Shown: positions 12,695 through 21,689, counted from the stretch's first letter. The stretch is DNA of 22,633 bases from a virus (IMGVR_UViG_3300021440_000127:1-22633), one strand, 5' to 3'. Notes: generated by a model from the sequence alone, not told the origin. Program-made: numbers and translations.

Positions 12695-13819
12695 TCAGAT
12701 CGAGGCGCCGGGGGCCAGCGTGTAGGTGTGGTCAACGGAGATCACGCCCATGTCCATGCCGTTGTAGCGGCACTTTTTGTAGCCGGCGATGACGCGCATC
12801 ACCACGACTTCTTCCTCGCCGTGGTCAAGGTCGGACTCCGACAGCTCGTAACGGGTCTTGCGCGATTGGCCCTTGGTGCCGTAGGCCACAGCACAGGCGT
12901 GGGCGCCAATCAGCAGCGAGCGCGTCGCCAGCACAGTGCCCGCACCGGCGTCGTTGAACTTGACCGGGGTTTCGACTTCGTCGATCAGGGCGCCGTTGTA
13001 GAGCGCCTTGCCGCCGGTGAAAATCAACGACTTGCTGCCCTCCGCGGCGGCACGCGCCTTCTCGACGGTCAGCCAGCCGGCCTCGCCCACTTCACGGCGC
13101 AAGTCGAACATCGATTCGGCGCTGGTCATAAACAGCCAGTGCGATCCGCCCTCCACCGCGCACATTTCCATGCGTGCGGCCTTGCCCTCGCGGACATTGC
13201 CGATCATCTTCTTGGCCTTGAGGATGGCCGAATCGACCACGGCCGTCTTCAGCGTGTGCGTTGCCGCCACCAGCGAGCCGTAGGCCACGCTGCCGTCATA
13301 GACCTGTCTGTGCCCGGTGTCCGGCGCCAACAGTGCGTTCGGGAATCCCGCGTACCCGCTCGGGTAGAGATGGAACTCATCGCCCACACCACGCGAACCG
13401 GCGAGGTTCATCGTGATCTGCTCATCGTGCATGTCGGCCGCGTAGTCGGCAACACGCATCTTGACCTGTTCGGCAATGTCGTAGGGGACGCGCTTCTGGT
13501 CCATGACATCTCCGCAGTTCACGGCCTTGCGGTGCTTGTCGATGCGCAGCTTGTCGGTGTAGTGGTTCAGCCGATCCTCGAAGCCGGCGATCTTCTCGCT
13601 GCCCTCACGCGGCTTGCCGGTGAGCTTGGCGATCAGGTACATCGTGACTTCGTCGCCCGGCCCGGATTCGAGGCTGGTCTTGCGAACGACCGGCATCGAG
13701 TCCTTCTCGGTGCCGGTCATCTTGGTGTACTTCGACCGCTTGTTCGTTTCGGTGGCGACTTCGGTTTCCCAAATCTTCACCGCGCCAGCGTCGGAAGGTA
13801 GGATGGTGGTACGAGCCAT
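12695..13819 (-). CDS. Major capsid protein, N4-gp56 family
   Basis: 374 residues from ATG 13819. Family hallmarks as I recall them are AVKIWETEV near residue 13, PGDEVTMYLIAKLTG near 54, LNHYTDKLRIDKHRKAV near 84-100, and DQKRVPYDIAEQVKMRVADY near 107. The C-terminal half contains LLIGAHACAVAYG and VVVMRVIAGYKKCRYNGMDMGVISVDH. The product forms the HK97-type shell of the head. It follows a scaffold-like gene and a CsrA-like gene, and it is preceded by a 108-base leader, one of only two long leaders in the late region. The leader carries a promoter-like motif shared with the terminase leader, a conserved hairpin, and a second hairpin that places the GGAG of the ribosome binding site in a loop and the AUG in the stem. 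Confidence 0.9.
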   Translation of the reverse strand: MARTTILPSDAGAVKIWETEVATETNKRSKYTKMTGTEKDSMPVVRKTSLESGPGDEVTMYLIAKLTGKPREGSEKIAGFEDRLNHYTDKLRIDKHRKAVNCGDVMDQKRVPYDIAEQVKMRVADYAADMHDEQITMNLAGSRGVGDEFHLYPSGYAGFPNALLAPDTGHRQVYDGSVAYGSLVAATHTLKTAVVDSAILKAKKMIGNVREGKAARMEMCAVEGGSHWLFMTSAESMFDLRREVGEAGWLTVEKARAAAEGSKSLIFTGGKALYNGALIDEVETPVKFNDAGAGTVLATRSLLIGAHACAVAYGTKGQSRKTRYELSESDLDHGEEEVVVMRVIAGYKKCRYNGMDMGVISVDHTYTLAPGASI

Positions 13820-13845
13820 GTGTCATCTCCAGTTGCGACACACAG
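13816..13845 (-). promoter_or_regulatory. Hairpin over the ribosome binding site and start codon of the capsid gene
   Basis: On the minus strand CTGTGTGTC (13845-13837) pairs with GACACATGG (13824-13816), giving nine pairs of which two are G-U. The 12-base loop GCAACTGGAGAT holds the Shine-Dalgarno GGAG, and the AUG (13819-13817) lies in the stem. A GGA in a hairpin loop at a ribosome binding site is the classic shape of a CsrA target. The core here is CTGGAG, so the preferred A-N-GGA context is not exact. The pairing is seen; regulation is inferred. Confidence 0.55.
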
Positions 13846-13872
13846 CACTCCTGCGCTGTAGGGGGTTGCTTT

Positions 13873-13890
13873 CACCAGCTACTGCTGGCG
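13873..13890 (-). promoter_or_regulatory. Conserved leader hairpin upstream of the capsid gene
   Basis: On the minus strand CGCCAGC pairs with GCTGGTG (seven pairs, one G-U) around the loop AGTA. It starts 11 bases after the CGTTGAC-N10-TCCCCCTGA motif. The same two arms with a different loop occur at 19918-19938 in the terminase leader. It is not followed by a T-run, so it is not an ordinary terminator. Confidence 0.6.
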
Positions 13891-13901
13891 CACGCACATA
13901 T

Positions 13902-13927
13902 TCAGGGGGATTTTTGGTTTGTCAACG
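13902..13927 (-). promoter_or_regulatory. Promoter-like late control motif, copy 2 (capsid leader)
   Basis: On the minus strand this reads CGTTGAC, ten A-rich bases, then TCCCCCTGA. TTGACA matches the sigma-70 -35 consensus exactly, but the expected -10 site (AATATG at 17-base spacing) is poor. The same 16 fixed bases with the same spacing occur at 19948-19973. It begins immediately after the stop of the CsrA-like gene. It may be an activator-dependent late promoter or an operator. Confidence 0.6.
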
Positions 13928-14119
13928 TCATCCAGCCACGGGTTGCGCCGCGCCTCGGTGGATGATGACTGCTTCGTCGGCAGTGATGCGCAGGCGGGCG
14001 CGGTGCCCCGCCTTGCGTTCGAGCGTCACCGTGATGCGCTGGTCGGCCTGCCCGAGCTTGGGTGCCAGCAATTGCAGGCCGTCTCCGGCCCGCACCTCGA
14101 TTACGACACTGCGCTTCAT
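13928..14119 (-). CDS. CsrA-like RNA-binding protein (putative)
   Basis: 63 residues, close to the usual CsrA size of about 61. The ribosome binding site GAGGGA overlaps the scaffold stop, eight bases before ATG 14119. Residues 29-55 (ITVTLERKAGHRARL, then RITADEAVIIHR) align by eye with the core of CsrA: the strand VTVTVLGVKG, QVRIGVNAP, and the AVHR end with its key arginine (here R55). The N-terminus (MKRSVVIEVRAGDGLQLL) differs from the usual LILTRR opening, so the RNA-contact strand is altered. CsrA proteins bind GGA in hairpin loops and block or activate translation. Its position just before the capsid leader, which has a GGAG-loop hairpin, suggests control of capsid translation, but this is inference. 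It could instead be an unrelated small beta protein. Confidence 0.55.
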   Translation of the reverse strand: MKRSVVIEVRAGDGLQLLAPKLGQADQRITVTLERKAGHRARLRITADEAVIIHRGAAQPVAG

Positions 14120-14127
14120 CGGGTCCC

Positions 14128-14985
14128 TCAGTGCGTCGGCATGGTCGAACGGCGCAACTGGTCGCGCCTGGCGGCCGGCATGCGTTCCAGCATCGCCTCG
14201 GCCGCATCAGGGTCGTCCAGCGCCGAGAATTGCGTCATCAGGTCGTCGCCGACTGGCGGCGCTCCGGCCTGCGGAAGCCCCATCAGCGTGGGCGGCACTT
14301 GGCGCGGCACTTTGGGCGCTGGGGGCGCCGCGACTGCCGGTGCAGCAACAGCAGCCGGTTTCGGCGCCACGATGCCGCGCTGCGCCAGCACCATCGTATG
14401 GGCCTTGTCGGCGAGCCTGTCGAAGTTCATCGCTGCGTTGGCCTTGATCGACGCCACGAATTGCAGGGCCGCATTGAATTCATCGGCCGCCGCCGGATCG
14501 CTGTAGTCAATGCTGCCGTCCTGCTTAGCGGCCTGCGCGATGGCGGCGAGCTTCGCCTCTTGTGCTGCCAGGCGGGTCTGTTCGTTCGCCTGCTGCAGCG
14601 TGCGCTGCGCGGTCAGCTCTTCGAGGCTGTCATCCACCCGGCTCTCGATGGCTAGATAGGCGGAGCGGTCAATGACGCCCTCATCGAAGTCGCTGAACGC
14701 CTTCTGCTTCTCGGCGCGCAGGGCGGCGCGCTGGTCGGCGATAGCCTCTTTCGTGAGCGTGCGGTACGGGTCAGCCGGCGCGGCCGGCGCAGCATCCTCG
14801 GCTGCTCCGGCTGCGGCAGTTTCGGCGGGCAGATCATCAGCAGCCGGCGCTTCCTCGCCCACCACAGCCTGCAGCGCCTCGATGCTCGGCGCCTCATCTT
14901 CTTCGACTGGCGGCACATCCTTGGCGGCGCGCGACAGTTGAAGAGCTTCCAATTCGTCGGGGGTCAGGTCGTCTTCTGGGTTCAT
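14128..14985 (-). CDS. Probable scaffold protein
   Basis: 285 residues. The start is ATG 14985 in an ATGA overlap with the small gene before it; a longer frame to 15132 reads through that gene. The N-terminal 70 residues are very acidic and Ala/Pro-rich. Residues about 75-160 are charged helices likely to form coiled coils (KEAIADQRAALRAEKQKAF; LEELTAQRTLQQANEQTRL). A Pro/Ala-rich linker follows. The C-terminus is short and basic (LERMPAARRDQLRRS), as expected for a scaffold that touches the inner face of the coat through a basic helical tail. The order portal, scaffold, capsid is standard. No enzyme motif is visible. The scaffold role rests on composition and gene order. Confidence 0.75.
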   Translation of the reverse strand: MNPEDDLTPDELEALQLSRAAKDVPPVEEDEAPSIEALQAVVGEEAPAADDLPAETAAAGAAEDAAPAAPADPYRTLTKEAIADQRAALRAEKQKAFSDFDEGVIDRSAYLAIESRVDDSLEELTAQRTLQQANEQTRLAAQEAKLAAIAQAAKQDGSIDYSDPAAADEFNAALQFVASIKANAAMNFDRLADKAHTMVLAQRGIVAPKPAAVAAPAVAAPPAPKVPRQVPPTLMGLPQAGAPPVGDDLMTQFSALDDPDAAEAMLERMPAARRDQLRRSTMPTH

Positions 14986-15182
14986 GCTAACGCTTCCTTG
15001 GTTGTGCCGGCAACGGCCTTCAGCTCGGCCAGCTTCTCTGTTGCGCAGGCCTTGGCTGCAGCCAGGCGCTTCGCGTCCTTCTTGATTTCCTCGGCTTGGG
15101 CGAGCACGCGCATGTCGCTTTCCGCGCGCCACTCTGCCTCTTGCTTGCTGATCCCTGTCGATTTCATCCCTGTCGATTTCAC
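14982..15182 (-). CDS. Small helical protein with duplicated N-terminus
   Basis: 66 residues. The start is GTG 15182 in a GTGA overlap with the portal stop, with a strong ribosome binding site (GGAGAAGG) about six bases upstream. The first ten codons are a perfect duplication that gives MKSTG twice. An ATG at 15167, at the start of the second copy, is an alternative start. The rest is a charged, probably coiled-coil helix (EAEWRAESDMRVLAQAEEI; RLAAAKACATEKLAELKAV). No family is recognised. Lying between portal and scaffold, it may help in head assembly. Confidence 0.65.
   Translation of the reverse strand: MKSTGMKSTGISKQEAEWRAESDMRVLAQAEEIKKDAKRLAAAKACATEKLAELKAVAGTTKEALA
15151..15181 (-). 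repeat. 15-bp tandem duplication at the start of the small gene
   Basis: On the minus strand TGAAATCGACAGGGA occurs twice in direct succession. The first copy overlaps the portal stop TGA and the GTG start; the second carries an in-frame ATG. The period is 15 bases, so the reading frame is kept and five residues are doubled. Confidence 0.8.
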
Positions 15183-17344
15183 GGTTGACCTTCTCCGGTT
15201 GGTTGTTCGATCACTCCGTCTGGCGCCGGAGTCTCTATGCCCTGCATGCCGTCGTCGGCCTGCTGCAGTTCTGGCATCGGTGTTTGCGCCGGCACCTGCG
15301 GCACTGGCGCGTCAATGACTCGGGGTGCGCCGCCGTTCTGGTCCTCGAAGCCGACCGACTTCGCCAGTTCGTCGGCCACCGGCGCCGCTCCCGGTGCCGT
15401 CATCAGCACCTGCGCCGCCTGCGCCGCCATGTAGAGCGTCTCCAGCCGCTTCGCCATCGCCTCGGCCTCGACCTTGGCGCCCTTGGCCTCGGCCTCACGG
15501 ATGACTGCCTGCGTTTCGCGCAGTTGCAATTGCATCTGCTGCTCGGCCAGTTGCGCCTTCTGCGCCTGCGCGGCGCGGTCCTGCGGCGAGTCGGCATCGG
15601 GATCGCTCATGCCGGTGGCCTGGCGGATGCGCTGCAGGATCGACTGCTTGTTCGGCATGTCCGACCACTCGAACACCAGATCGAGGATCGACGTGACCAC
15701 TTGCGGGGCCATCGGCGCGAGCTGCGCCAGCATGTTCATCGCGCTGTCGAAGGACGCGGAAGCCATCGACTGACGCCACGGCGCATCGCCGATGACGAAT
15801 TGCGCCTGGTGCGCGGTCACGTCGTTGATCTTCGCGCCCGTCGCCGGGTCGATGTCGTTGATGACCTTGTAATCCAGCTTGTAGCGCTCGCCCGTGACCG
15901 AAAACACCTTCTTCTCGGTGTAGTACTGCTCGATCAACGACAGCTTCAACTCGCCTTCCAACTGGTGAGCGAACAGCAGGTTGTCGAACAACTCTGCGGT
16001 CTGCACGCTGCCGCGGTCGGCCTTGGCATCCATCGCCACGCGGCTGGTCGCATTCGACTGCAGGCCGCGGTTTTCCTCGTTCACGCCTCCCGTCGATCTG
16101 ATCGCTGCGATGTTGCGATCGGCGACGGCCAAGTGACCGGCGGCCATGTCGCCATGTTCCCGCACCTGCACCTTGTTCCCGGACAGCGCACCGTTGGCGA
16201 ACTTGACGATCCCGTTCGGGTCGTTCATCTCATCGCGGATTTCTTCGGTGTCCATCACTTCTTCGTCGATGGCACCTGTTTCCAGCCGTAGCTGGTTCAC
16301 GTTCAGCAGGAAATTGGCCTTGGAGAACCGCTTGTTCAGGTCGTCCTGCGGGCCGCGCACAGGTCGCACCGGCCCGTAGGGCATGCGGTCCTTCTTCCTC
16401 CGGTATGCCCACAGCGGCACGAACGGGTATCGATTGTGCTTGTAGGGCGACCATTCCTCGATCAGCGTGTCGTGCTCGGTCATGATCGACACGCGCATGC
16501 GCATCCTAGCGCGGTCGTGGACACCGGCGCCCTGCTTTGTCGAGCCCGTGAACGGCTCGTAGTTCCAGCACTCGATCAGCAGCACGCGCTTGCGTGGGTT
16601 GTGGAGCCATGCATTACTGTCGTAATGCATCCACTTCGCCGGCATTGCCGCCGTGCCCATGAATCCGTCCGTGGGCCAACCCGACAGCCATCCGCTTTGA
16701 AACATCGTGCCGTCGTCCATGCTCGACGCGCGGGCCAGTTCCAACTGCTTGTCTGGGAAATACGCCTGCGCGATGTCAAGGTCCACCTCGCGGAAGCGGA
16801 ACAAGAACCGCGCATCGCTCAGGTCTTGCCGCGTCGCCAGCGGGTCATAGACGATGTTCCGCCACGATTCGGCGATGGTGTAAATCGGCTCGTCCTCGGG
16901 GTCGGAGCGCACGCCGACCTCGATCCAGCCCATGCCGGCCTTCCAGCAGTCGTCCACCGCCTGCGAGCGTTCGAACGGCTCGCGGTTGACGTCGCTCAGG
17001 TACTTCAGCAAGTCCGTCTTGATCCCGGCATCCGCTGCTGCCGCCTCGTCGCCGTTGTTGCGGTTCAGGACCTTGAAATCCCGGCGCATGCGGCGCTCGG
17101 TGCCGATCATCCAGTCAATCGTCGGCTTGACCTCGTTGTAGACGATGGGGTTCTGGCCGCGGCGACGCACTGCCGCGGCTTCCTCGGCGGTCCACTGCAG
17201 CGAGTCGTAGTAATCCTCATCCAGCGCCATCTGATAGCGGTTGGCCTCGTGCTGGGCCATCGCCATCGAGAACCACATCTTGCGCTGGGCGAAGCGCTTC
17301 TTTGCGTCCTCATCAGGGCTGCTGCGCGTGGGTTTGCGGGCCAT
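15179..17344 (-). CDS. Portal protein, P22-like
   Basis: 721 residues, almost the length of the P22 portal. The start is ATG 17344, one base after the preceding stop. Family features include NPIVYNEVKPTIDWMIGTER near residues 65-84, CWKAGMGWIEVG near 133-144, SWRNIVYDP, and GPQDDLNKRFSKANFLLN in the middle. From about residue 589 there is a long Gln/Ala-rich coiled coil (AQAQKAQLAEQQMQLQL; REAEAKGAKVEAEAMAKRL), matching the helical barrel of P22-type portals that projects into the head. A Pro-rich acidic tail follows. Twelve copies form the vertex through which the terminase packs DNA and to which the adaptors and tail attach. The order TerS, TerL, portal, scaffold, capsid is classic. Confidence 0.9.
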   Translation of the reverse strand: MARKPTRSSPDEDAKKRFAQRKMWFSMAMAQHEANRYQMALDEDYYDSLQWTAEEAAAVRRRGQNPIVYNEVKPTIDWMIGTERRMRRDFKVLNRNNGDEAAAADAGIKTDLLKYLSDVNREPFERSQAVDDCWKAGMGWIEVGVRSDPEDEPIYTIAESWRNIVYDPLATRQDLSDARFLFRFREVDLDIAQAYFPDKQLELARASSMDDGTMFQSGWLSGWPTDGFMGTAAMPAKWMHYDSNAWLHNPRKRVLLIECWNYEPFTGSTKQGAGVHDRARMRMRVSIMTEHDTLIEEWSPYKHNRYPFVPLWAYRRKKDRMPYGPVRPVRGPQDDLNKRFSKANFLLNVNQLRLETGAIDEEVMDTEEIRDEMNDPNGIVKFANGALSGNKVQVREHGDMAAGHLAVADRNIAAIRSTGGVNEENRGLQSNATSRVAMDAKADRGSVQTAELFDNLLFAHQLEGELKLSLIEQYYTEKKVFSVTGERYKLDYKVINDIDPATGAKINDVTAHQAQFVIGDAPWRQSMASASFDSAMNMLAQLAPMAPQVVTSILDLVFEWSDMPNKQSILQRIRQATGMSDPDADSPQDRAAQAQKAQLAEQQMQLQLRETQAVIREAEAKGAKVEAEAMAKRLETLYMAAQAAQVLMTAPGAAPVADELAKSVGFEDQNGGAPRVIDAPVPQVPAQTPMPELQQADDGMQGIETPAPDGVIEQPTGEGQP

Positions 17345-17345
17345 C

Positions 17346-17813
17346 TCAGAGCACCGATTCGTTGATGACGCGGCCGTTCGCGTCCTTGGCGGTCATCTCC
17401 ACCAATGGCTCGCCGACCTCGGCACGGCGCACGGACGGCGGCGCAGGCGGACAGCGGATCAGGTCAGGCGTGTGCCTGATGATGATGTCCAGCAGTTGAT
17501 GCACCTCGGCGTCCAGCTTCGCCCGGCCCAGCACCGGCAGCGCGCGCAGCACTTCGAGCACGGCTTCGCGCGTCGGACGTCCGTTGACCTCGGCGTACTT
17601 GCCGATGGACGACAGGCAGATCCCGAAGGCGCCGGCCGCGCGCCCGCCCTGCTGCGACCAGATGAGCATGATGGGCTCGCAGGTGCGTCCGTCCTGATCC
17701 CACTCGATGCTGACGGTGTAGCCGCCGGAGTGGAACGTCTGCCAGGCCAGGTCGCCGCCCATGCGGAAAAGGTTGCGACCGGTGGGGCCGATGATGAGTG
17801 CTTGTCGGTTCAT
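17346..17813 (-). CDS. Protein between terminase and portal, unknown function
   Basis: 155 residues from ATG 17813, four bases after the terminase stop. The first 60 residues look like a small beta domain (MNRQALIIGPTGRNLF, GGYTVSIEWDQDGRT, PIMLIWSQQ). The middle is helical (TREAVLEVLRALPVLGRAKLD). The C-terminal 40 residues are Pro-rich and basic, then end in NGRVINESVL. No enzyme motif, signal or membrane segment is seen. The family is not recognised. Its place in the packaging block and tight spacing suggest a role in head assembly or packaging. Confidence 0.65.
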   Translation of the reverse strand: MNRQALIIGPTGRNLFRMGGDLAWQTFHSGGYTVSIEWDQDGRTCEPIMLIWSQQGGRAAGAFGICLSSIGKYAEVNGRPTREAVLEVLRALPVLGRAKLDAEVHQLLDIIIRHTPDLIRCPPAPPSVRRAEVGEPLVEMTAKDANGRVINESVL

Positions 17814-17817
17814 GGGG

Positions 17818-19281
17818 TCAAGAGGTTTTCCAGTTGCGTTCGCGGCGCGGCCTGTCTCGCTCGGGCTCGCATCGCGCCAGCGCTAAGCCGGACATCACGA
17901 GATAGCGCGTGGCGTCCATCAGGTGGTCGTGCTCCTTGACGATCGCGCCCTTCTCGTCGCGCCGATAGATGCGGTACTCTGACAACCAGTTGCTCAGGCT
18001 CTTGGCGACCTTGAGCCGGCCCGAAGACATGCGCTGCCACACTTCGTAGATGCCCGCCTCGCGTGCGTTGTCTGCCGGCGTCAGGCGAAGACCACGCTCG
18101 GTGTAGATGCGCAGCAGTTGCTCGCCGTCGTCCTGACTGCGGCCACGACTGGCGGGGTCGATCACGCCCATGATCCACTTGCCGCGGGCCTGTATGGCCT
18201 CGACGTGCAATGCCGGCTCGGCCTGCCCTCTGTAGTGCTCGCTGTAGAGGTGGACGACATCGTTCTCGCGGTCCCACGCGCCCCAAATGCAGGCGGTTCG
18301 GTTCCACCCGACATCCAGCGCGTAGCAGCGCGGCCAGTGGTCGGGGATGCGGAAATCGTCCTCGACGATGTCCGACTCTGGGACCGGATAGATCGCACCG
18401 GCACCCAGCGCGGGGACTCCGCGGGTACGCGCATCGCGCTGGTAGGGCATGAGCTTGGAAAGCAGCGTGGCCTTCGCCGACTCATCCAAGTGCGGCACGT
18501 CATCCCATCCGCATTGCGTGATCGATGGAACTCCGACCCCGCCGACGTGCGCCCGCGTCTGGATCGACTGCACCAGGCGCGTCAATCCCTTCAGCGGGGT
18601 GAATGTCAGCGTCGAGATGCCGCGCACGGTCAGCAGCCGGACCATGCCTTCCTCGTAGACCTCTTCCGGGCATTCCTCGTCGGGCCAAAAGATGTCCAGC
18701 TCGAATCCCTGAAAGATGGCTCTCCCCTGTTCGTAGCTGCGCAGCCAGATTTCAGACTCCCCGCCGCTGATGTGGCGCACCGTGGCGCGCTCGATGGCTC
18801 CCTTGACGTGCGGGCGCGGCACGATGCCGACGATCAGGTCGCCGGGAATTAGGCCGGTGCCGATGTTGTCGGGCTTGTCCGTCGTGCCGCCGAGCATCTT
18901 GAGTTGCAGGATGTCGCGGGTCGTTTCGTGCGTGTCTCCGCTGACCAGCATCCGCACCGGTAGGTCGAAGCGCTTGCCCACCCACCAGGCCGGGTATCTT
19001 CCGGTCAGGTGGTAGGTATGCTCCGTGCCGGCGCCGACCGTCTTGCCGACGCGGTTGCCGGCCATGAAGACGCGCTCGTCGTGCGTCGCGCCGGCCTCGA
19101 AAAACGCCAAGTGTTTCGGGTACAGCTCCCGGCGCAGCGGCCCGGCGTCGGGGAACATCGTGGACAGCAGGCGCGTCCTGGATCGACGGTTGATCTCATC
19201 CAGCAGCGCCGCCAATTCAGCGCGCTCGGCCGCCGTCAGGGCAGCCACATCCTGCGGCGCAGACACTACCTGTAGTGTCAT
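17818..19281 (-). CDS. Terminase large subunit
   Basis: 487 residues, start ATG 19281 in an ATGA overlap with the small subunit. The ATPase domain has a Walker A motif AGNRVGKT (74-81) and a Walker B with catalytic acids in DIFWPDEE (196-203). The nuclease domain is RNase H-like: the first Asp in YALDVGWN (D323), a second in GVIDPAS (D375), and a third in HDHLMDATRY (D456). The protein drives DNA into the procapsid through the portal and cuts the concatemer. Length and domain order are complete. The P22-like portal favours headful packaging, but the packaging mode is not proven here. The first codons of the gene lie within one copy of a repeated 16-bp palindrome. Confidence 0.93.
   Translation of the reverse strand: MTLQVVSAPQDVAALTAAERAELAALLDEINRRSRTRLLSTMFPDAGPLRRELYPKHLAFFEAGATHDERVFMAGNRVGKTVGAGTEHTYHLTGRYPAWWVGKRFDLPVRMLVSGDTHETTRDILQLKMLGGTTDKPDNIGTGLIPGDLIVGIVPRPHVKGAIERATVRHISGGESEIWLRSYEQGRAIFQGFELDIFWPDEECPEEVYEEGMVRLLTVRGISTLTFTPLKGLTRLVQSIQTRAHVGGVGVPSITQCGWDDVPHLDESAKATLLSKLMPYQRDARTRGVPALGAGAIYPVPESDIVEDDFRIPDHWPRCYALDVGWNRTACIWGAWDRENDVVHLYSEHYRGQAEPALHVEAIQARGKWIMGVIDPASRGRSQDDGEQLLRIYTERGLRLTPADNAREAGIYEVWQRMSSGRLKVAKSLSNWLSEYRIYRRDEKGAIVKEHDHLMDATRYLVMSGLALARCEPERDRPRRERNWKTS
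19263..19278. repeat. 16-bp palindrome, copy 1 (candidate pac or terminase-binding site)
   Basis: ACACTAC-CT-GTAGTGT has perfect seven-base arms. This copy lies in the first codons of the large terminase gene and touches the small terminase stop. An identical copy lies 55 bp away inside the small terminase gene. Confidence 0.65.
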
Positions 19282-19844
19282 AGGTCGTCAGAACCCTGTG
19301 GCTTGTCTGGCACCGGCACACTACCTGTAGTGTCCAGGGCGCTGATCGTCACGCCCAGCTTCGCCAGCTTGCTGACCAGATCGGAGTCGCTGACCTCGCG
19401 CAGCGTCGTCGTCTGCGTCACATCCAGCTTGTCGCCGTACTCGCGCGGGTTGACCTTGCTCGCCCGCCAGCGCAGGTGATGCGCCGCTTCCTTGGCCTTG
19501 GCTAAAGAGAACGGGTCATCGGCGCGCTGAATGCCGTCCAGGGCCTGATCGTCATACGCAGCAGCGGCGGCCGATCTAGAAGCGCGCGCGCGCGCGGAAC
19601 GCGTAACGTCGGCGGCAAGCCACTGCCGAACAGAGCTTTCATCGGCCAGTTCCAGGGTTTCCGCGATGGCGCGCAGCGACAGCCCGTCCTCAATGAACGT
19701 GCAGATGGCGTCGATGCCGATGGCGTCGAGCTTCTGCCTGGGCGTTTTGTTGGCGGCAGCACGCGGCGCAACCGGCTTGCCGCCACGCTTCGGTGATTGC
19801 TTGGCCGCCACCTTCGGTGCGGCACGTCCTGCGCCCTTGACCAC
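19278..19844 (-). CDS. Terminase small subunit
   Basis: 188 residues if started at GTG 19844, which has AGGG about ten bases upstream. Alternatives are GTG 19853 and TTG 19862, the last lying almost against a GC-rich hairpin. The N-terminus is basic and Ala/Lys-rich. Residues about 44-79 form a helix-turn-helix (GIDAICTFIEDGLSLRAIAE, then SSVRQWLAAD). The C-terminal half has the pattern KAKEAAHHLRWRASKVNPRE followed by YGDKLDV, characteristic of a widespread phage small-terminase-like family. It should bind the phage packaging site and hand the DNA to the large subunit, whose gene overlaps its stop. The C-terminus (LDTTGSVPVPDKPQGSDDL) spans one palindrome copy. Confidence 0.85.
   Translation of the reverse strand: MVKGAGRAAPKVAAKQSPKRGGKPVAPRAAANKTPRQKLDAIGIDAICTFIEDGLSLRAIAETLELADESSVRQWLAADVTRSARARASRSAAAAAYDDQALDGIQRADDPFSLAKAKEAAHHLRWRASKVNPREYGDKLDVTQTTTLREVSDSDLVSKLAKLGVTISALDTTGSVPVPDKPQGSDDL
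19318..19333. repeat. 16-bp palindrome, copy 2 (candidate pac or terminase-binding site)
   Basis: Identical to the copy at 19263-19278. Here it encodes part of the C-terminus of the small terminase (DTTGSV) in a different reading frame from copy 1 (TLQVVS). Conservation of protein sequence therefore does not explain the DNA identity. Confidence 0.65.
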
Positions 19845-19866
19845 GATTCCCACGCCCTGCAAATAG

Positions 19867-19890
19867 CCCGCGGCTGGTGAGGGCCGCGGG
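19867..19890 (-). promoter_or_regulatory. GC-rich stem-loop just upstream of the small terminase gene
   Basis: CCCGCGGC pairs with GCCGCGGG (eight perfect pairs, eight-base loop). On the minus strand it is followed by CTATTTG, only a weak T-run. It could be a weak terminator or attenuator ahead of the late genes, or a 5'-leader structure. A smaller hairpin (CTCCC/GGGAG, loop TTGC on the plus strand) lies next to it at 19895-19908. Confidence 0.5.
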
Positions 19891-19917
19891 CGAACTCCCT
19901 TGCGGGAGATGAGGAGA

Positions 19918-19938
19918 CACCAGCCCCAGCGGCTGGCG
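19918..19938 (-). promoter_or_regulatory. Conserved leader hairpin upstream of the small terminase gene
   Basis: On the minus strand CGCCAGCC pairs with GGCTGGTG (eight pairs, one G-U) around the loop GCTGG. It starts nine bases after the motif at 19948-19973. The arms match those at 13873-13890 in the capsid leader; only the loop and one added pair differ. Confidence 0.6.
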
Positions 19939-19947
19939 GTGTAATCG

Positions 19948-19973
19948 TCAGGGGGAAAACGTGGAAGTCAACG
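19948..19973 (-). promoter_or_regulatory. Promoter-like late control motif, copy 1 (terminase leader)
   Basis: On the minus strand this reads CGTTGAC, ten bases (TTCCACGTTT), then TCCCCCTGA. TTGACT resembles a -35 box, but no good -10 follows (ACGATT at 17-base spacing). It shares all 16 fixed bases and the exact spacing with 13902-13927. It points toward the terminase genes. Confidence 0.6.
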
Positions 19974-19999: not shown

Positions 20000-20015
20000 C
20001 AAGCACGAATGCTTG
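20000..20015. promoter_or_regulatory. Palindrome overlapping the -35 box of the plus-strand promoter (candidate operator)
   Basis: CAAGCA-CGAA-TGCTTG has perfect six-base arms. Its right end supplies the TTG of the TTGACA box at 20013-20018, so a protein bound here would block the polymerase. The helix-turn-helix protein at 20560-20844 is a possible ligand. Confidence 0.45.
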
Positions 20016-20040
20016 ACATTAGGCGCAATGAACCTATACT
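20013..20040 (+). promoter_or_regulatory. Sigma-70-type promoter of the plus-strand cassette
   Basis: TTGACA (20013-20018, consensus) and TATACT (20035-20040, five of six consensus) are separated by 16 bases. Transcription should begin near 20047 and run into the genes at 20102, 20336 and 20560. The 5' leader contains a hairpin CGCAGC/GCTGCG at 20049-20066. Confidence 0.75.
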
Positions 20041-20335: not shown

Positions 20336-20554
20336 ATGGCAACGATCGAAACGACCGATGGCAATGAGATTTGCGCTGGCCTACAGGGCTGCGACGTTTG
20401 CGACGAGGCGATCCATGCGGCGCAGCGGCATGCGGACGGGCTGCAGGCCGATGTGGTCCTCCACGACGACGATGGCGCATGGCTCGTGCATCCCGCCATC
20501 AACGGCAAGCGCGAGCAGGCCGAAGACATCGACCATCTGTTCGCCGCCGACTGA
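20336..20554 (+). CDS. Small acidic protein with a CxxC pair, unknown function
   Basis: 72 residues from ATG 20336, with GGGGGAG six bases upstream, almost the same ribosome binding site as the gene before. Features are a CDVC pair near residues 19-22, a helix (DEAIHAAQRHADGLQADVV), an acidic strand (LHDDDGAWLVHP), and an acidic end. The cysteine pair could bind metal, but no second pair is present. It sits between another small gene and the helix-turn-helix gene in one apparent transcript. Confidence 0.6.
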   Translation: MATIETTDGNEICAGLQGCDVCDEAIHAAQRHADGLQADVVLHDDDGAWLVHPAINGKREQAEDIDHLFAAD

Positions 20555-20559
20555 CTGAC

Positions 20560-20844
20560 ATGTCCAATCACCCCGGCCGCAAGCCGGGGTCTGCGCAACT
20601 GCGCATGACCCCTGAACAGTTGCGCGATCTGATCGAGCGGGCAGGCATCACGCAGGCCCGCGCCGCCGAGCTGGCGGGCGTCAAAGAGCGCACGCTGCGG
20701 CAGTACCTTGCCGGCGATCGCGCCATGCCCCTGTCGGCATCCGGCCTGCTGTGCCTGTCGCTGATCCTGCTGGGTGCGCCTGCAGGGATGCTGGCGCCGT
20801 GGCTGACAGAGGAAGTTGCTACGGCGCTAGGTGTGATGCCCTAG
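20560..20844 (+). CDS. Helix-turn-helix DNA-binding protein
   Basis: 94 residues from ATG 20560, five bases after the preceding stop. Residues 16-56 form a helix-turn-helix of the XRE/Cro-like kind: TPEQLRDLIERAGITQARAA, then GVKERTLRQYLAGDRAMP. The second half is hydrophobic (GLLCLSLILLGAPAGMLAPWL) and may pack as a dimer interface; a membrane role seems less likely because similar small regulators carry such helices. It is last in a three-gene cassette between the early and late blocks. It could repress its own promoter, which has a palindrome over the -35 box, or control the divergent late genes. The target is not known. Confidence 0.75.
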   Translation: MSNHPGRKPGSAQLRMTPEQLRDLIERAGITQARAAELAGVKERTLRQYLAGDRAMPLSASGLLCLSLILLGAPAGMLAPWLTEEVATALGVMP

Positions 20845-21399: not shown

Positions 21400-21689
21400 A
21401 GAAGCGATCTCCCATCCTGGCTCATGCAGGACAGTCTCCTGAGTGTTTCGTTCAGCATCGCCAGCTCGGTCAGCTTGCGCACGCGCATGTAGGTTTTAGT
21501 GCCGTGCAGGCCATTCGGCCCCCTGTGGCAGTCAGGGCACAGGCTAACCGCCGTGAACCATGAGCCCTGTTCGATCTCGTGCGCCTCGGTGATGCCCTGC
21601 GCATCGCAGCACACGCAACCTGCGGCCTTGACCCGCTCGACATGCGCGCGCTCGGCCCTCGTCATCGGCCGCTTGTTCGGGCTATGCAT
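21396..21689 (-). CDS. HNH-like zinc-binding nuclease (putative)
   Basis: 97 residues, ATG 21689, overlapping the RusA-like gene by eight bases. Zinc ligands are probably C25 and C28 (GCVCCDAQG) with C51 and C54 (LCPDCHRGP). Histidines at AHEI (H37), CHRG (H55) and GLHG (H62) are placed as in beta-beta-alpha-metal HNH nucleases and in Ref-like RecA-associated nucleases. It probably cuts DNA during phage recombination or replication. It lacks the long N-terminal extension of P1 Ref and is short for a homing endonuclease. Activity is inferred; the motif and neighbours (RusA-like, NinB-like) support a recombination role. Confidence 0.65.
   Translation of the reverse strand: MHSPNKRPMTRAERAHVERVKAAGCVCCDAQGITEAHEIEQGSWFTAVSLCPDCHRGPNGLHGTKTYMRVRKLTELAMLNETLRRLSCMSQDGRSLL

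Follow-up and report, generated by a model that had tools for sequence, protein, structure and literature searches.

The question raised by this locus is what is controlled by a two-part element that occurs twice on the minus strand of a viral DNA fragment, ahead of the small terminase gene and ahead of the major capsid gene. The record analysed, a virus fragment from IMG/VR, is 22,633 bases long and is referred to at its full length as the window; on its minus strand lie packaging and head genes of the P22 type, comprising small and large terminase, portal, a scaffold-like gene, a csrA-like gene of 63 aa, major capsid, and adaptors. The first-pass annotation proposed either an activator-dependent late promoter with a 5′ hairpin or a put/qut-like antitermination site. 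The reading preferred here, to which a probability of about 0.6 is given as a whole, is that of late promoters combined with a translational switch that would be relieved by a phage CsrA-like protein.

The Locus and Its Relatives

The genes required for the argument are the following:

12695–13819, minus strand: major capsid gene (Phage_capsid_3, Pfam E 2.6e-46)
13928–14119, minus strand: csrA-like gene, 63 aa, product P0001 (phrog_8397, "CsrA-like regulator")
14128–15132, minus strand: scaffold-like gene, upstream of the csrA-like gene (phrog_8246)
19278–19862, minus strand: small terminase gene (TerS), start codon uncertain (Sf6_terminase, Pfam E 3.4e-15)

The scaffold-like gene is putatively named from its position, which equals that of the corresponding gene in Bcep22-like phages. 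The window capsid is related to those of the Bcep22-like podophages Itty13, JC1, Pavtok, Skulduggery, Parlo, BcepIL02, and LASTA, in which the conserved order is portal, scaffold-position gene, csrA-like gene, about 100 bases, and capsid; its nearest relatives are the IMG/VR contigs L069, L070, L081, and L082, with a capsid identity of about 70–79%. Around 130 capsid loci with readable leaders were gathered by scanning viral and bacterial contigs.

Two further features of the window lie near the terminase end. On the plus strand, at 20000–20040 and divergent from the terminase copy of the element, a near-consensus sigma70 promoter (TTGACA-16-TATACT) overlaps the palindrome CAAGCACGAATGCTTG; the plus-strand genes ahead include an HTH protein (20371–20844), and the stretch looks like a repressor/operator region. 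A small protein encoded at 21689–21396 on the minus strand matches phrog_1588 (3.5e-12) and, weakly, Q-like antiterminators and RecA-dependent nucleases.

The Two-Copy Element

The element was confirmed by direct reading: CGTTGAC-N10-TCCCCCTGA is present at 19973–19948 and 13927–13902, and CGCCAGC-loop-GCTGGTG at 19938–19918 (loop of 7) and 13890–13873 (loop of 4), with gaps of 9 and 11 bases between the two parts, as first described. Each part has exactly two copies in the window and none in 100 dinucleotide shuffles, and only two further sites, within chance, appear when up to three mismatches are allowed in the first part; the two-copy element is real, with both copies exact and far beyond chance. 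Copy 1 sits in the small terminase leader, and copy 2 starts immediately after the TGA stop (13930–13928) of the csrA-like gene, which the first-pass annotation had missed together with a conserved hairpin at 13859–13842, itself a stronger finding than the two-copy element.

A search of IMG/VR for GTTGAC-N9-11-TCCCCCTGA returned 66 matches, none of which (0/66) has the hairpin, and these exact matches are attributed to chance because they lack both the hairpin and a shared context. The TCCCCC run is peculiar to this phage and absent from its nearest relatives L069, L070, and L081.

Predicted Late Promoters and 5′-Terminal Stem-Loops

The first part of each copy contains the hexamers of a promoter:

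19944–19971, minus strand: copy 1 promoter before TerS, TTGACT (19971–19966), 16-base spacer, GACGAT (19949–19944)
13898–13925, minus strand: copy 2 promoter before the capsid gene, TTGACA (13925–13920), 16-base spacer, GAATAT (13903–13898)

The earlier statement that no good −10 follows the TTGAC box was therefore too strong, since each copy shows, at a 16-base spacer, a −10-like hexamer in which A2 and T6 are present. In the window and its nearest relatives the promoter takes the form TTGAC(A/T)-16-(G/A)A(C/A)N(A/C)T. Its −10 reads GACGAT and GAATAT in the two window copies, GACGAT in L081, GAACCT and GACGCT in the two L070 leaders, and AACACT in L069; these hexamers match the consensus poorly except for A2 and T6, which are invariant in all six leaders, and a stricter sigma70 consensus scan of the window listed neither copy.

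The wider set of relatives was covered by a sigma70-type scan of the 110 bases preceding the conserved capsid-leader hairpin (hairpin A, described below), with a TTGACA-like −35 and a TATAAT-like −10 placed 15–19 apart; 61 of 69 distinct leaders score above their shuffles (mean 7.8 vs 4.8). The typical promoter of the relatives is TTGCAA/TTGCAT-17-GATAAT, its −35 lying about 5 bases after the csrA stop and the end of its −10 about 13 bases ahead of hairpin A; in the window clade the latter distance is 38–42 bases, owing to the extra 5′ hairpin. An exception is L082, without a good promoter between the csrA-like and capsid genes. The assignment of both copies as late promoters of the sigma70 type, with copy 1 serving the packaging genes and copy 2 acting as an internal promoter for the capsid, is thus a well supported prediction from these comparisons; such an element is ordinary in kind.

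The second part of each copy is a hairpin:

19918–19938, minus strand: copy 1 hairpin CGCCAGCC-GCTGG-GGCTGGTG, on the TerS message
13873–13890, minus strand: copy 2 hairpin CGCCAGC-AGTA-GCTGGTG, on the capsid message

Transcript starts inferred from promoter spacing fall at about 19937 and 13891, about 7 bases past the −10 and, in both copies, at the foot of the CGCCAGC hairpin; CGCCAGC/GCTGGTG would therefore be a 5′-terminal mRNA stem-loop, and the predicted starts are consistent with the gaps of 9 and 11 bases. A hairpin near the predicted start is found in the clade's other leaders too, its sequence being unrelated, so it is the place of the 5′ hairpin, rather than its sequence, that is kept. 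The stem-loop opening each transcript probably shields the 5′ end from decay. Of the original proposal, the late promoter with a 5′ hairpin is supported, being found at the same place in relatives and with starts predicted at the hairpin foot, while activator dependence is not needed to explain the promoter sequence. A sigma32 reading (TTGAC plus the C run) was rejected, the C run being lost in L081 and L070.

A Conserved Putative Switch Element in Capsid Leaders

On the capsid message, 30 nt further downstream, lies a second element:

13842–13859, minus strand: switch hairpin A, ACAGCGC-AGGA-GTGCTGT, conserved core GCGCANGA(N)GTGC

Capsid leaders have in common the hairpin GCGC-ANGA(N)-GUGC, located about 35–60 bases ahead of the capsid start. 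With no preselection, it is present in 66 of 80 distinct capsid leaders and in 3% of shuffles, the criterion being a stem of at least 4 pairs around an ANGA(N) loop, so that variants with exchanged stem bases (TCGTC/GACGA, AGCTC/GAGCT) are counted too. Of the strict motif, 94 occurrences fall in capsid leaders and 42 in the rest of 1.95 Mb, compared with 0–2 and 2–31, respectively, for permuted motifs, and the capsid-leader element is common to about a hundred related phages. The loop in the window, AGGA, contains GGA; in relatives it is ANGA, often AUGA or AAGA, and loops without GGA may reflect a changed specificity or another ligand. In Rfam, the element from seven sources gave no family match at gathering score, and the window and L076 leaders gave none at E < 5, unrelated noise aside; the switch element is a new, previously uncatalogued RNA motif, the type of control being already known.

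The only other strict copy in the window, GCGCAGGACGTGC at 19834–19822 on the minus strand, is in-frame coding sequence at the 5′ end of the TerS frame with no suitable SD, and was set aside as probably due to chance. Some capsid leaders carry tandem copies of the hairpin (L155:9927 and 9953; L190:9923 and 9966).

The 3′ half of the element is complementary, in the leaders of relatives, to the stretch from SD to start codon, and a duplex fold of the window gives the corresponding helix:

13815–13846, minus strand: competing helix B, GCTGTGTGTC (13846–13837) with GACACATGGC (13824–13815)

In the window, helix B has 10 contiguous pairs including G-U, covers the capsid start codon, and holds the SD GGAG (13830–13827) in its loop. 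The window clade thus meets the competition between hairpin A and helix B in another way than other relatives: the arm GCTGT, common to both, can continue through GCTGTGTGTC in pairing with GACACATGGC.

In relatives the two strands of helix B covary: element and spacer types agree exactly in 26 of 46 leaders, where 9.8 are expected and 0 of 20,000 permutations reach this number, and a second variable base, the loop base N, does so in 20 of 26 vs 11.5 (p 0.00025), figures from permutation tests that are inflated by kinship of the sequences. By type, the diagonal of the table holds 13/24, 5/10, 6/8, and 2/3, with three off the diagonal. Beyond this, the leaders can hardly be aligned, and most of the capsids share about 29–38% identity with that of the window. 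Of 46 leaders, 35 are predicted to adopt helix B as naked RNA, with a mean advantage of 8.4 kcal/mol over any fold that keeps hairpin A. The predicted minimum-energy fold of the window leader includes hairpin A and not helix B, and the fold of this leader as a whole is ordinary for its composition (z −0.72). Mutual exclusion is only partly achieved in the enterobacterial/Pseudomonas group, where the arm that sequesters is located on the 5′ side of hairpin A.

The same element is also found ahead of lysis, tail, and giant-virion-protein genes. In 27 of 43 distinct extra sites an SD, a start, and an ORF of at least 60 residues follow within 62 bases, as against 10% at random, and the extra sites likewise show an excess of complementarity (5.03 vs 4.21 ± 0.14). 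The genes, whose names are inferred from position and sequence start, are endolysin-type lysis, tail (MPxIKLxAFTGEQPR), internal virion protein (MGKxSSSAPAPDP), and giant virion protein (MPIVIGLG) genes. In particular, Agrobacterium phage Atu_ph08 has four element sites ahead of four genes, with the csrA-like gene beside the scaffold-position gene and the capsid in another module.

Two arrangements were observed in passing. In L168, L169, L173, L174, L180, L183, L185, and L077 divergent capsid and lysis-type genes each have the element in their leader, and an inverted repeat of 12–15 bases, its copies about 60–80 bases apart, surrounds the promoters. In the rhizobial prophages L220 (7266) and L221 (9088), on the minus strand, a further element lies about 30–50 bases downstream of the csrA-like match, and no ORF of more than 60 residues starts within 62 bases of it.

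The CsrA-Like Protein and Its Co-Occurrence with the Element

P0001 matches phrog_8397 with E 2.1e-7 and Pfam CsrA with E 0.044, at 14.2 bits, below the cut-off of 27, which is exceeded by the relatives L161, L115, L154, L138, and L122. Its AF2 model has a pLDDT of 87.8, and CsrA/RsmA/RsmE structures occupy the first 11 ranks among its PDB matches, with probabilities of 0.97–1.00, TM scores of 0.56–0.67, and E values of 0.24–1.1, weak for so small a chain. From this model P0001 is predicted to have the CsrA fold.

A csrA-like gene is adjacent in 78 of 100 loci. Twelve element genomes without an adjacent gene were searched whole, and 10 of the 12 have a csrA-like gene at E < 1e-4; of the remaining two, one gives a match at 0.007 and the other is a fragment of 24 kb. 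In at least seven of the ten, the csrA-like gene shares a contig with the capsid, at a distance of about 30 kb, and sits in a cluster of four to five elements. Among nine genomes or records behind loci lacking both gene and element, three have a csrA-like match, and those from Acinetobacter and Citrobacter appear to be the CsrA of the host itself.

Proposed Mechanism

At rest, helix B would form between the 3′ arm of hairpin A and the region of the RBS and start codon, keeping translation low. The CsrA-like protein, made from the gene just upstream, would bind hairpin A, whose ANGA loop resembles a CsrA site; hairpin A, once held by the protein, would prevent helix B, and the capsid, the presumed target of the element in the window, would be translated. 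In related phages the same element could coordinate the capsid, lysis, tail, and giant-virion-protein genes.

This explanation is supported, at the level of sequence comparison, by promoter position, the conserved hairpin, helix B covariation, the several targets, and the co-occurrence with csrA-like genes. We infer that the ligand is the CsrA-like protein, acting as an activator and not as a repressor: activation is preferred because hairpin A is invariant and helix B is kept only as complementarity, which is expected if the protein holds A and thereby undoes B. The more general proposal, that throughout a widespread podophage family a CsrA-like protein switches on translation of the phage's own late genes via a conserved two-state RNA element, is tentative and put at slightly under even odds. 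If true, the podophage CsrA-like system would be a phage-borne post-transcriptional late regulon.

Alternative Explanations

Repression is unlikely and survives best among the alternatives; here a CsrA-like dimer would bridge hairpin A and the SD hairpin, block the ribosome, and so delay the capsid or set the scaffold:capsid ratio. The window and its clade do have two stem-loops, with a GGA loop (13852–13849) and an SD GGAG loop, in the classical CsrA layout; however, helix B already covers the RBS, so that its covariation with the arm of hairpin A would be needless, and many hairpin A loops are without GGA.

That GGA is not kept in all loops also suits a response of hairpin A and helix B to something else, such as host CsrA/Hfq, temperature, or simple translational coupling. 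This is again unlikely, and ranks after repression: the element is co-inherited with a csrA-like gene even when the latter is about 30 kb from the capsid, with no other csrA-like gene found there.

At the level of transcription, a phage-specific activator that binds TCCCCCTGA and co-recognises the promoter would explain a closer match between the two copies than between either of them and the promoters of relatives. TCCCCCTGA and the 10-base spacing recur exactly in the two copies despite the differing bases between, and the L081 capsid promoter has CCTGACGATT in common with copy 1. This reading is nevertheless improbable, given that the TCCCCC run is not kept in L069, L070, and L081, that sigma70 hexamers suffice in most relatives, and that no activator gene was identified; for the Mor/C family, no match was found among the proteins scanned from this 22.6 kb fragment.

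Finally, Q- or put/qut-like antitermination, in which the element would load an antiterminator so that polymerase passes a leader terminator as at lambda pR′-tR′, is very improbable: a strong hairpin with a weak T tract (CCCGCGGC-CCTCACCA-GCCGCGGG, 19890–19859, minus strand) does lie between copy 1 and TerS, the TerS leader has a z of −2.94, L070 has a terminator-like hairpin at the same place before TerS, and the protein at 21689–21396 has a weak Q-like match (phrog_6060, E 0.014), but no terminator follows copy 2, the TerS leaders of other relatives share no conserved terminator (the window's entry in this comparison being by sequence inspection only), and both hairpins coincide with the predicted transcript start.

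Comparison with Known Systems

Late promoters of Mu are activated by C, and lambda pR′/qut controls late genes. As in these systems, the late genes considered here appear to be controlled at leader sites; unlike in Mu, no C-like activator or site was found in the window, and unlike in lambda, there is no conserved terminator or antiterminator arrangement. T7 late mRNA and ompA mRNA have 5′ stem-loops, and here too a late or abundant message would open with one; in contrast, the promoter in the window is host-type and the role in stability is putative.

A csrA-like gene is known in the Bcep22-like phages JC1, DC1, BcepIL02, and Parlo (PMC7366521, PMC9144972, PMC8450108, PMC11879866). It has been called a moron, possibly virion-associated on the basis of one peptide (PMC9144972); another proposal is that it targets host pathways, for example CRISPR control (PMC8450108). 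The accessible portions of a survey of phage csrA alleles name no phage target (PMC7366521). In coliphage PTXU04, knockdown of the csrA homologue shrinks plaques (PMC11879866); this phage was not adopted as a model, its csrA being next to lysis genes and its csrA and capsid belonging to another phage group. The present reading thus differs from the phage and plasmid csrA literature, which, in the portions of these papers available, treats the gene as a moron or as aimed at the host and names no phage mRNA target (PMC7366521, PMC9144972, PMC8450108, PMC11879866).

Phage csrA, hitherto explained as an accessory gene or anti-host weapon, is tied here to a repeated RNA element on the phage's own late messages, which turns the reason for its presence into a direct question of binding and reporter assays. 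The tie also suggests that late protein timing in these phages is set by translation besides transcription, and the switch element is an RNA motif open to searching and to inclusion in RNA family libraries.

E. coli CsrA and Pseudomonas RsmA-RsmE control mRNA leaders, for example those of glgC and hcnA; classical CsrA sites need GGA, and on glgC CsrA blocks the ribosome by bridging. The phage system resembles these in the predicted CsrA fold of the protein and in the ANGA/GGA-loop hairpins of the leaders, one of them near the SD. In contrast to them, the protein is phage-encoded beside its putative target, the hairpin loop is often without GGA, the hairpin arm is shared with an RBS-covering helix, and an identical element is found on several late genes.
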